From contig JAMCUS010000013.1 in assembly GCA_023379385.1 (NCBI GenBank), positions 36,635 to 100,634 of the forward strand: a stretch of DNA of 64,000 nucleotides, in the 5' to 3' direction. Position 1 is the stretch's first letter; each line of letters opens with the position of its first letter. A model generated the notes under the pieces. The model was not told the origin of the DNA. It saw nothing but the letters and a program-made list of their open reading frames with translations, and did not search any database. Made by a program: the position numbers and the translations under genes. The stretch comes from Thermoplasmatota archaeon. GTDB taxonomy: Archaea > Thermoplasmatota > Thermoplasmata > Lutacidiplasmatales > JAMCUS01. Of this stretch, positions 6,211 to 41,067 are shown piece after piece.

Positions 6211-6308
6211 GCGGGAGTACTCAAGCATGGCCAAAGGGGCAAGGCTTAGGACCTTGTTGCGCAGGCATTCGCCGGTTCAAAATAATATTGAAAATCCGGC
6301 CTCCCGCA
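6211..6308 (+). tRNA. tRNA-Leu (anticodon TAG) with 13-nt T-loop insertion
   Basis: Acceptor GCGGGAG/CTCCCGC, anticodon arm CAAGG-CTTAGGA-CCTTG, long variable arm, T-stem GCCGG/CCGGC enclosing TTCAAAATAATATTGAAAAT instead of a 7-nt loop. Confidence 0.9.
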
Positions 6309-6352: not shown

Positions 6353-9034
6353 ATGAAGATGGATAATAGCAATGCTAACACAGATAATAATTTACACGAA
6401 AAAACAGATAAAGGCCCATACGATAGCAAAGAGGTAGAAACAAAATGGCAAGATTACTGGGCATCTGAATCAATATTTAAATTTATTCCGGATAGTCCAT
6501 TACCCGTGTTTTCCATAGACAACCCTCCAAGATATACGTCAGGTCCATTACATATGGGCCATGCAATAGGCTATTCCTTAATTGATTTTGTGGCTAGGTT
6601 TAAAAAAATGATAGGCTTTAATGTATTCTTTCCGTTATGCTTTGATGCCAATGGAATGCCAATAGAGATCAAAGTAGAAAAGAAATATGGAGTAAACAAA
6701 AAAAATACAGATAGAGCTAAACTTATAGAATTATGTACAGAATATTCCAATTCCAATATTGCAGAAATGGTGAGACAGTTTAGGTCTCTTGGTATAACAA
6801 TGGATAATTCTATCTATTACCAAACAGATTCACCAGAATACAGAAAATTGACCCAGATAACCTTTTTAAAATTGTATGAAAATAATATGGTGTATAGAAA
6901 AGAACATCCTGTAATATGGTGTCCACACTGTGAAACCTCACTCGCAGCTGCGGATGTTGAATACGACGAAGAATCCAAAAATTTAATTTTTATCAATTTT
7001 AAGAACGAAAAAAATAGTATACCTATAGCAACTACCAGACCTGAACTTCTTCCTACATGCCAGATGGTATTGATAAATCCGGAAGACAATAGATACAATA
7101 ACTTTGTTGGACAAAAGGTAAACGTACCCATATTTAATCAATCGGTTCCTGTTATGACTGATAGCAAGGTAGACCCATCATTTGGTACTGGAGCTGTTAT
7201 GGTCTGCACTATTGGAGATAAAGATGATCTGTTTTGGACTTATAAGTATAATTTAACATTATTGAAAGGTATTGATGAAAGCGGGAGGTTGACAGATCTA
7301 GCAGGTGTATTTTCAGGACTGACAATAATAGATGGAAGAAAAGCAATAACAAACGAATTACAAAAAACAGGCAGTGTTATAAAAATAGAAAGCATAAAAC
7401 AGAATGTTGGAAAATGCTGGAGATGCCATACACCGGTAGAGTTTGTAAACAAACTGAACTGGTTTCTAAAAACCTTGGATTATAAAGAAGAGATTAAAAA
7501 AATTAGTGATTCAATTATCTGGCACCCAGAATATATGAAAAAAAGGCTGGATTCCTGGATTGACTCTCTTCTATGGGACTGGTGCATATCGAGGCAGAGA
7601 TATTTTGCTACAGCAATTCCTGTATGGATATGTGAAAAATGTGGATACATCCTTCCCGCAAAAGTAGAGGATTGCTATATAGATACATTGATAAAAGAGC
7701 CGTACATTGAAAAATGTCCTGAATGTAATGGTAAACTGAAAGGTTCTGACGAAGTTTTTGATACGTGGATGGATTCAAGTATAACTCCCCTATACAATAG
7801 CTCCTGGAATAGGGATGGTCAGTTGTTCAAAAAACTGTATCCAATGTCTTTAAGACCTCAAGCACATGAAATAATTCGTACATGGATTTTTTATACGATA
7901 TTGAGATGCAAGCAGATGACAGATATAAAGCCATGGAACGAAGTGATGATACATGGCTTTATAATGGCACCAGATGGACGACCCATGCATGCTTCAGCTG
8001 GAAATGCTATAGACCCACTGCCAATTATTGAAAAGTACGGCGCAGATGCTTGGCGATATTACACAGCTAAATGTAAGTTGGGAGAAGACACTGCATTTCA
8101 GATAAAAGAGGTAATTCATGGAAGAAAATTTATGATAAAAATGTATAATGTATCCAAATACATAAAAATGAATGTACAAGGCATTGAAGATATTGGCAGA
8201 ATAGATCGGACAAAAGAGCTCGCCGATATTGATAAATGGATTTTAACAAAATTTAAAATTGTATTTGATACAGTGGTATCCTACTATAACAATTATGAGT
8301 TTGATAAGGCAATATCTGTTATAGAAGAATTTGCATGGCATGATTTTGCCGATTTTTATATAGAAATGAGTAAGGAACGGGCAAAAGCACATGACGCTTC
8401 GGTAGCCTATACCCTGTCCACGGTTGGTATCGGAATAATAATGTTATTAACACCCATTACCCCTCATCTAGCAGAGGAGATCTATCAGGATATTTACAGA
8501 AAAGAATATCTCGTTAAAAGTGTGAATATGCTTCCAATGTCTTTTGAATATTTGTACGATGAACAATCATATAAAATTGGTGAACTATTAAAAAACATAA
8601 TATCCAAAATATGGACATATTCTGCCACGGCACATGTTAATTCATTCAGAGTCATATTTATCGTGGGTGTTTTGAATGATTCACTTATAGAAGCATTAAA
8701 ACATATGAAAAAATTGTTAAAAACCGATGATATAAGATTTTTGAACAACACAGATATTACAACTAAACCTGTAGATGTCAGGTTATTGAAAGAAAAGGTA
8801 GGATCAATATTCCGTAATGAAATGGCTAAAGTCATAGAGATTGTAAATAAACAGGGAATATCTGTTCTATACAGGGAGCTCATGAACAACGGTTATATCG
8901 ATATTGAATTAAATGGAAGAGTTGAAAGACTGTCCAAAGATTATTTTAAAATAGAAACTACAGAAATCGTTGAGGAAATGAATGTTAAACAGATTGAAAC
9001 ATCGGGAATGGATATACACATGTATGTATCATGA
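6353..9034 (+). CDS. valS: Valyl-tRNA synthetase
   Basis: 893 aa; PPRYTSGPLHMGHAIGYS, VIWCPHCETSLAAADVEY, WDWCISRQRYFATAIPVW, VFDTWMDSSITP, RPQAHEIIRTWIFYTI. Confidence 0.9.
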   Translation: MKMDNSNANTDNNLHEKTDKGPYDSKEVETKWQDYWASESIFKFIPDSPLPVFSIDNPPRYTSGPLHMGHAIGYSLIDFVARFKKMIGFNVFFPLCFDANGMPIEIKVEKKYGVNKKNTDRAKLIELCTEYSNSNIAEMVRQFRSLGITMDNSIYYQTDSPEYRKLTQITFLKLYENNMVYRKEHPVIWCPHCETSLAAADVEYDEESKNLIFINFKNEKNSIPIATTRPELLPTCQMVLINPEDNRYNNFVGQKVNVPIFNQSVPVMTDSKVDPSFGTGAVMVCTIGDKDDLFWTYKYNLTLLKGIDESGRLTDLAGVFSGLTIIDGRKAITNELQKTGSVIKIESIKQNVGKCWRCHTPVEFVNKLNWFLKTLDYKEEIKKISDSIIWHPEYMKKRLDSWIDSLLWDWCISRQRYFATAIPVWICEKCGYILPAKVEDCYIDTLIKEPYIEKCPECNGKLKGSDEVFDTWMDSSITPLYNSSWNRDGQLFKKLYPMSLRPQAHEIIRTWIFYTILRCKQMTDIKPWNEVMIHGFIMAPDGRPMHASAGNAIDPLPIIEKYGADAWRYYTAKCKLGEDTAFQIKEVIHGRKFMIKMYNVSKYIKMNVQGIEDIGRIDRTKELADIDKWILTKFKIVFDTVVSYYNNYEFDKAISVIEEFAWHDFADFYIEMSKERAKAHDASVAYTLSTVGIGIIMLLTPITPHLAEEIYQDIYRKEYLVKSVNMLPMSFEYLYDEQSYKIGELLKNIISKIWTYSATAHVNSFRVIFIVGVLNDSLIEALKHMKKLLKTDDIRFLNNTDITTKPVDVRLLKEKVGSIFRNEMAKVIEIVNKQGISVLYRELMNNGYIDIELNGRVERLSKDYFKIETTEIVEEMNVKQIETSGMDIHMYVS

Positions 9035-24700: not shown

Positions 24701-24800
24701 GCTCCCGTAGTGTAGTGGTCAAACATCGAGGCCTCTCGAGGTTTCTGGAGACAGTCTCGGCCCCGGGTTCAAAGCTATGTTGAAAATCCCGGCGGGAGCA
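24701..24800 (+). tRNA. tRNA-Glu (anticodon CTC) with two insertions (37/38 and 59/60)
   Basis: Acceptor GCTCCCG/CGGGAGC; anticodon stem GAGGC/GTCTC around intron AGGTTTCTGGAGAC; T-stem CCGGG/CCCGG around TTCAAAGCTATGTTGAAAAT. Confidence 0.88.
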
Positions 24801-37340: not shown

Positions 37341-37441
37341 GTCGGGGTGGCTCAGACTGGTAGAGTATCGGACTCATAGGGTTTATTTATGATACTACCG
37401 GAGATATCCGGGGGCCGCGAGTTCAAATCTCGCCCCCGACA
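37341..37441 (+). tRNA. tRNA-Met (CAT) with ~27-nt anticodon-loop intron
   Basis: Acceptor GTCGGGG/CCCCGAC, T-arm GCGAG-TTCAAAT-CTCGC, anticodon stem TCGGA/TCCGG around CTCATA + intron GGGTTTATTTATGATACTACCGGAGAT. Confidence 0.88.
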
Positions 37442-39837: not shown

Positions 39838-41067
39838 ATGGCTGATTCTAAAGGAGTGTCTGGTAGCTCCAAATCCAATATATATGACAAAATTTTAATA
39901 TATATTATTAAAAAAGGAAAGGGTAACAAAGATATATCTAGAAATGACTTTATAAGAGATTTGAGAAAGGAGTTTAGCCAATTTTCATACAGTGATATTG
40001 AAAAAACCATACCAGAATTAACAAAAAATGGACATATTAGTATACAATGGGTTGGCGTTGGCGATTTCAATGTAAATATAACACAAAAGGGTATTGAATA
40101 TATTGAATCAAACAAAGAAAAGATGGAACAGATCGGAGCTTCTCTTTCTTTGAAAGATGTAAAAAATGAAATCAAAGGATCAAAAAAAGCACCTAATGTG
40201 TTAGAGATTGTTGAACAACCAACTAATACAGGTATGGATAACAATGTCAAAGAAATAAGCTATTCAGAATTAGATGAAAATAAAACAAAAAATAGCTTGC
40301 CTGATATAAAAGATGTAAAAAATGAAGGTTATATTCCTTCACCTATATCTGATAATATAAAAAATAATATGCTGGAAAGAGAAAAAAGGTTAATGGAATT
40401 GGAAAATGAATACAAAAAGAATAAAACGAATTTAGAAAATATGGAAGAAGAACTGAATAAGAGAAATAAAATATTGGATGAAAAAGAATCTAAAATAAAT
40501 GAAATGAAGATAAAATTTAATGAATTAATTGAGAATCTAAAGAATGATATAAATGAAAAGGATCGTATGATATCTACATTAAAAAATGAAAATGAAAATA
40601 TTAAAAAAATGTACAGTAATGTAGAAACAGTTAAAGAAAATGAAGAAATCAAAAATAAACAGAAAGAACTTTTAGACAAGGAAGCCGAGTTAAATAATAT
40701 TAAACTTGAAATATCTGGAGAAAAAGATATAATGATTCAGCATGAGCTAGATCTTTCTACAACGGAATATGAATTAGAGGAAAAAAAGAAACTGTTAGAA
40801 AAGGAATATGAACAATTGGCTATTGAAAGAAACAAAAGAAATGTTATTATCAAGGCAATTGAAGGCAGAGAAAAACAATTAGATGAGATGGAAAACAAAA
40901 TTAAAGAAAAGGAAAAGTCTATTAATATTGCAAAAGAAACTATCAAAAGAATTCTGTCTATGTGGTTAGAAAAAATAGAAAAGATGGATGTTACATTGCA
41001 TTCATATATGAATTCTGCTCAGGAACTTAAAATAACAATAGAAGATATTTATAAATACATGAAATAA
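39838..41067 (+). CDS. N-terminal winged-helix-like domain plus long coiled coil
   Basis: about 409 aa; ~100 aa HTH-like N-terminus then heptad-rich EK region. Confidence 0.6.
   Translation: MADSKGVSGSSKSNIYDKILIYIIKKGKGNKDISRNDFIRDLRKEFSQFSYSDIEKTIPELTKNGHISIQWVGVGDFNVNITQKGIEYIESNKEKMEQIGASLSLKDVKNEIKGSKKAPNVLEIVEQPTNTGMDNNVKEISYSELDENKTKNSLPDIKDVKNEGYIPSPISDNIKNNMLEREKRLMELENEYKKNKTNLENMEEELNKRNKILDEKESKINEMKIKFNELIENLKNDINEKDRMISTLKNENENIKKMYSNVETVKENEEIKNKQKELLDKEAELNNIKLEISGEKDIMIQHELDLSTTEYELEEKKKLLEKEYEQLAIERNKRNVIIKAIEGREKQLDEMENKIKEKEKSINIAKETIKRILSMWLEKIEKMDVTLHSYMNSAQELKITIEDIYKYMK

Follow-up and report, generated by a model that had tools for sequence, protein, structure and literature searches.

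The window (the whole stretch analysed, 64,000 nucleotides) belongs to a draft assembly of 1.63 Mb in 45 contigs (G000), 93.8% complete. On its plus strand it carries a tRNA-Leu(UAG) gene, running from the acceptor stem to the discriminator A at positions 6211-6308. The gene was recognised by direct reading, with 7/7 acceptor pairs and 5/5 T-stem pairs, and by ARAGORN on the form with the T-loop spliced. Its acceptor stem pairs GCGGGAG (6211-6217) with CTCCCGC (6301-6307), its anticodon loop CTTAGGA gives the anticodon UAG, and it has a long variable arm. The T-stem consists of GCCGG (6271-6275) and CCGGC (6296-6300), and between the two strands lies a T-loop of 20 nt instead of 7, TTCAAAATAATATTGAAAAT (6276-6295). 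The first six letters, TTCAAA (6276-6281), would form the 5′ part of the mature loop (positions 54-59), and T at 6295 would be T60, the first nucleotide of the 3′ exon, according to the bulge-helix-bulge (BHB) rule (PMC6379350). The 13 nt between them, ATAATATTGAAAA (6282-6294), are the predicted intron. TTCA (6276-6279), the exon strand of the central helix, can pair with TGAA (6289-6292), leaving AAT (6293-6295) as a 3′ bulge and a remaining loop of 6 nt; by the BHB rule the 5′ bulge is AAA (6280-6282). The minimum free-energy RNA fold gives the same arm, with TTCAA:TTGAA and a 3-nt bulge, and 13 tRNAs of the genome share the arrangement. When 6282-6294 are removed, the T-loop TTCAAAT is restored and ARAGORN reads tRNA-Leu(tag). 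An earlier note on this DNA had described this insertion: its coordinates and cut sites proved right on direct reading, folding and ARAGORN, and the T-stem, the TTCA/TGAA pairing and the AAT bulge were likewise borne out by reading and RNA folding.

In its unspliced form the gene escapes standard detection. ARAGORN detects no tRNA in the gene alone and none in the whole window, and the Rfam search does not report this tRNA even under permissive settings. The sole Rfam tRNA in the window is a CAU-anticodon tRNA (Met type) with an anticodon-loop intron at 37341-37441. Elsewhere in the assembly, two CAU-anticodon tRNAs that are nearly identical to each other, one at a contig end (G000:C39:1-72) and one in contig C20, are probably an assembly duplicate. 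In the window, 44 bp separate the end of the tRNA-Leu(UAG) gene from the gene for valyl-tRNA synthetase (6353-9034), whose translation reads PMHASAGN where the KMSKS motif belongs. An intact second tRNA-Leu(UAG) gene, named in the earlier note as the refuting case, was not found in the 93.8% complete assembly.

The same insertion was read in the Leu(UAA), Asn, Asp, Ser(UGA) and two Arg tRNAs of this assembly. Those of Asn, Ser(UGA) and the two Arg tRNAs had already come up with the Rfam tRNA model, ahead of any use of an intron pattern. Searching the genome with the pattern GTTCAN{6,22}GAAAATC gave 17 matches, versus 2 in the reversed control. In 11 of them the T-stem pairs at 5/5, and all 11 also have a 7/7 acceptor stem; the other six were dropped because the T-stem pairs at only 2-4 of 5 positions. 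Two further candidates were rejected: a match of the class-wide pattern search in this genome at C14:23298, which has no surrounding tRNA, and an Rfam-list candidate at C24:75344, which is not a tRNA. A T-arm covariance model scores 13 T-arms at E values between 2e-9 and 7.5e-6, the next match in this genome being at E=0.06; the model was built from the same 13 sequences that it scores at E<1e-5, so these values measure the gap to background and are not an independent discovery. By this model there is no further copy of the short-form shape in the genome. Both pattern and model require GAA near the 3′ end, which puts the number of differently shaped T-loop introns outside their reach.

In all, 14 tRNA genes carry an insertion at 59/60. 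The intron reading of the earlier note stands, with the qualification that the gene is no lone oddity: it is one of 14 cases in the genome and belongs to a pattern that recurs class-wide. The short form is found in 13 of them: Leu(UAG), Leu(UAA), Gly(CCC), Gly(UCC), Glu(CUC), Ser(GCU), Ser(UGA), Asp(GUC), Asn(GUU), Arg(UCU), Arg(UCG), Arg(CCG) and Gln(CUG). The 14th, Lys(UUU), has a T-loop intron of 26 nt in a BHB form, with G57 paired to C. All four central-helix pairs are present in 12 of the 14 introns and three of four in the other two; in Ser(UGA) and Gln(CUG) one pair is A·G or G·A. The Glu(CUC) gene lies in the window as well (24701-24800, plus strand), recognised by direct reading, an acceptor inverted repeat and the T-arm model (E=2.8e-8; G000:C13:61397-61426). 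It appears to hold two introns, a predicted canonical one at 37/38 read directly, AGGTTTCTGGAGAC (24739-24752), with a CTCT/GGAG central helix, and a predicted 13-nt T-loop intron at 59/60, GCTATGTTGAAAA (24774-24786), found by the pattern, the T-stem check and the covariance model. The possibility that one intron transposed between tRNAs was considered. However, the similarity of the T-loop introns is no sign of common descent, because pairing with TTCA largely dictates their shared TGAAAA end.

T-loop introns are part of a larger load. By hand count, with an uncertainty of a few, introns interrupt 23 of the 39 different tRNA genes found in the genome and number about 36, of which about 14 are in the T-loop, 8 in the D-loop and 14 in the anticodon loop. 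Two genes, Leu(UAA) and Arg(CCG), contain three introns each: the former, on the minus strand at about 39892-40000 (G000:C19:37500-42500), has D-loop, anticodon-loop and T-loop introns, and the latter is located at G000:C22:61900-62200. For the D-loop introns, 7 of 8 tRNAs can be cut in at least one way that preserves a 4-bp helix and yields a tRNA with the expected anticodon; most of these cut sites are not unique, and the cuts tried for the Lys(UUU) D-loop did not settle its site. The tRNA-Trp(CCA) gene (G000:C22:68519-68664) is interrupted by a long intron in the anticodon loop; in archaea, a box C/D RNA can lie nested in the tRNA-Trp intron (PMC4090602). Seven expected tRNAs were not found in the assembly: His, Tyr, Gln(UUG), Val(UAC), Pro(GGG), Pro(CGG) and Thr(GGU). 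There is a practical side as well: the standard tRNA model reports only 29-36 tRNAs per genome in this order, including 31 in a genome of 100% estimated completeness (G001), versus 44-45 in two 99% complete genomes from families with few such introns.

Similar predicted T-loop introns are present throughout the order and in a large part of the class. Within the order, a T-loop intron with an inner hairpin follows TTCAAA in the tRNA-Leu(UAG) of genera g2, g5 and g9. This intron is absent from the inspected members of genera g3, g4, g6, g7 and g8, and the Leu(UAG) of g6, g7 and g8 has a D-loop insertion. The class-wide pattern search covered 221 genomes and was guarded by a control column, its single matches being taken without a check of the tRNA body. 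Family f2 has 5.55 matches per genome versus 0.15 in the control, and families such as f5, f10, f13, f16, f17, f19, f20 and f25 have 3-6. Family f15 shows no excess (1.18 versus 1.58 in the control). Our guess from EndA length is that f15 corresponds to the Thermoplasmatales: it is 289-292 aa in three of five members, and the T. acidophilum EndA has 289.

The matches printed in the class-wide search also bear on the exon-intron helix. The pattern left the base facing position 57 free, so the counts at this position are a fair test of that helix. G57 is opposite C in 46 of 51 hairpin-bearing candidates, and A57 (35 hairpin-bearing candidates) is opposite G in 24, U in 8 and C in 1. Position 57 and its intron partner thus covary (Fisher p=1.8e-17, with the genomes treated as unrelated). 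The frequent A57·G shows that the predicted helix commonly has three pairs and one purine opposition.

Taken together, the 13-nt insertion is very likely a tRNA intron of the archaeal kind at a non-canonical site, 59/60, in the bulge-helix-loop (BHL) form, and would be spliced by EndA. The earlier note had proposed such an intron, and it is still the best reading in view of the geometry, the restored cloverleaf, the 14 tRNAs, the relatives and the position-57 covariation. In the precursor, exon positions 54-57 (UUCA) would form a helix with the UGAA close to the intron's 3′ end, and the resulting arm would be a BHL version of the BHB motif. A dimeric EndA would cleave each 3-nt bulge behind its second nucleotide, and RtcB would ligate the exons into UUCAAAU, with the spliced junction GCCGGTTCAAATCCGGC. 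The normal T-loop fold would be possible only after splicing. Against this proposal, the central helix has only 4 bp, with A·G or G·A at one pair in Ser(UGA) and Gln(CUG), and G instead of U faces A57 in most A57 introns of the class-wide sample. The EndA of this genome is of a single-chain kind reported as narrow (PMC6379350), and according to the same source the M. kandleri enzyme is unable to process BHL substrates in mini-helix form. The BHL cleavage reported for the A. fulgidus enzyme took place at 37/38 in full-length pre-tRNA, a precursor whose elbow a T-loop intron would disturb.

The insertion might be a real intron removed by another nuclease or in another register, for example 58/59. 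In tRNA-Leu(UAG) the register is ambiguous from sequence because several neighbouring cuts yield the identical mature TTCAAAT, and in Asn(GUU) a cut at 58/59 would give this commoner loop whereas 59/60 gives TTCAAGT. However, TTCAAGT occurs natively in this genome, in a tRNA-Phe that has no intron, 59/60 agrees with the 3-nt bulge rule, and the position-57 covariation fits the 4-bp helix of 59/60. The predicted register 59/60 is thus the one chosen by the BHB rule, and another nuclease or register is very improbable. We give just as little weight to the idea that the insertion is retained and that the tRNAs function with a larger hairpin in place of the usual T-loop. The hairpin does fold in isolation, but retention would have to apply to 14 tRNAs of many amino-acid classes, and each insertion sits between TTC and T60 and leaves a standard T-loop once removed. 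Moreover, the insert length varies from 13 to 26 nt here and is longer in relatives with the exon-intron pairing kept, and both EndA and RtcB are present. A pseudogene or an assembly error, suggested by the draft state of the assembly, is next to impossible given that all stems are intact in the sole Leu(UAG) found and that the same structure recurs at 14 loci spread over many contigs, as well as in numerous independent genomes. Ordinary splicing-endonuclease introns at a non-canonical site best explain the insertions.

The kind of intron is already known from Thermoproteota, ARMAN and Asgard archaea, and T-loop and other non-canonical introns are reported from several phyla (PMC6379350, PMC3293823). 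The tRNAs of Thermoproteales have short BHB or BHL introns at several positions (Sugahara 2008 and Fujishima 2010, as cited in PMC8450103 and PMC4033280). They resemble the present case in having up to three introns per tRNA and a density close to one intron per tRNA, 0.84 compared with about 36 introns in 39 genes here. However, their EndA is of the (αβ)2 type with the crenarchaeal loop, whereas the one here is single-chain without this insertion. The permuted tRNAs of Thermofilum pendens likewise have a joint at 59/60 with a BHB motif (PMC3218864), but these are permuted halves, while here an intron interrupts a gene in normal order. ARMAN share BHL introns at various positions and a single-chain EndA (PMC6379350, PMC12397907), and the βC unit of their enzyme has an RGG-containing stretch related to the N half of the EndA studied here. 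The ARMAN ε2 enzyme differs in having three units, a catalytic middle unit and the ASL, as opposed to two units with a C-terminal catalytic one here. Finally, the Asgard Atabeyarchaeia and Freyarchaeia have non-canonical and multiple introns in many tRNAs (PMC11291895). They belong to another phylum and have introns in 92-95% of tRNA genes, versus about 23 of 39 here. Thermoplasmata are not among the groups with multiple-intron tRNAs listed in PMC4033280. The open-licence literature that we searched contains no report of tRNA introns in Thermoplasmata; an earlier mention or a tRNA-database entry is possible. As far as searched, T-loop introns in this class are new to the literature.

The point of interest shifts from the intron to the splicing endonuclease. 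The genome has a single RtcB gene and one EndA ORF of about 360 aa on contig C19, with two PF01974 and two PF02778 stretches. The catalytic Tyr-His-Lys lies in its C-terminal half, and the columns Y298, H306 and K337 are invariant. By its domain layout, EndA is a predicted single-chain enzyme of the α′2 kind, with two fused domains and C-terminal catalytic residues. Relatives with about 37-44% identity to it come from MAGs named as Thermoplasmata, Candidatus Thermoplasmatota, Euryarchaeota and Methanomassiliicoccales, and the EndAs of some order-mates are identical to EndAs in MAGs labelled Thermoplasmata archaeon. These relatives in named Thermoplasmata MAGs support the probable placement in Thermoplasmata. 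Reviews state that euryarchaeal α4 and α′2 endonucleases take canonical BHB introns only and that archaea with these enzymes carry single introns at 37/38 (PMC4090602, PMC4033280); the α′2 enzymes are also rated narrow in a table of PMC6379350 and in reviews. About 36 introns in 39 tRNA genes together with a single-chain EndA do not fit this rule.

Other EndA types and other explanations of a broad specificity were considered. An (αβ)2 EndA with separate genes was rejected, as the convincing PF01974 matches are all in one ORF. An ε2 enzyme (αN-α-βC, with a catalytic middle unit) was rejected as well, since 4fz2 matches only as three rearranged stretches. The crenarchaeal specificity loop was dismissed as the cause of the introns because the 10-residue insertion of the A. 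pernix α subunit is absent; its absence before the SLIE/SLLE helix was seen by alignment in the N half and from a same-length M. jannaschii match in the catalytic half. The YGK motif, with its ASL-like lysine, was also set aside: it is present in many Thermoplasmata EndAs, but the sampled members of the intron-rich family f2 read YGS or FGS.

There is another candidate in the N-terminal half of EndA. The stretch PRGGxxxKTPxRxW, with the consensus also written PRGG-x(n)-(K)TP-x-[RK]-[FYW]-W, is shared by the EndAs of Thermoplasmata families with T-loop introns. In alignments it is absent from the EndAs of families f12, f15, f21 and f26 and from that of A. fulgidus. Families with the stretch have 4.38 pattern matches per genome versus 0.40 in the control; those without it have 1.27 versus 1.40. 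Two families fit less well. Family f18 has the stretch and few introns, and f26, without it, is a poor fit (2.6 versus 0.8) driven by one genome. The f26 genome G207 has nine pattern matches, which are candidate tRNAs, and a short EndA without PRGG; other f26 members have few matches. The apparent association between PRGG and introns is a lead, that is, a correlation over few lineages and not a mechanism.

The sequences show the anatomy of the intron, its recurrence in 14 tRNAs, the Leu(UAG) T-loop intron in relatives, the covariation and the single EndA and RtcB genes, whereas cleavage, ligation and a relaxed specificity of this EndA are inferred. We tentatively suggest, as an idea with somewhat less than an even chance, that Thermoplasmata outside the Thermoplasmatales have a broad single-chain EndA that works by a non-CSL/ASL route, possibly through the PRGG stretch. 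These archaea offer natural substrates and enzyme sequences for testing the basis of relaxed specificity. If the suggestion is true, relaxed tRNA splicing would have arisen in one more way, and this would be coupled to the spread of T-loop and D-loop introns through the class.
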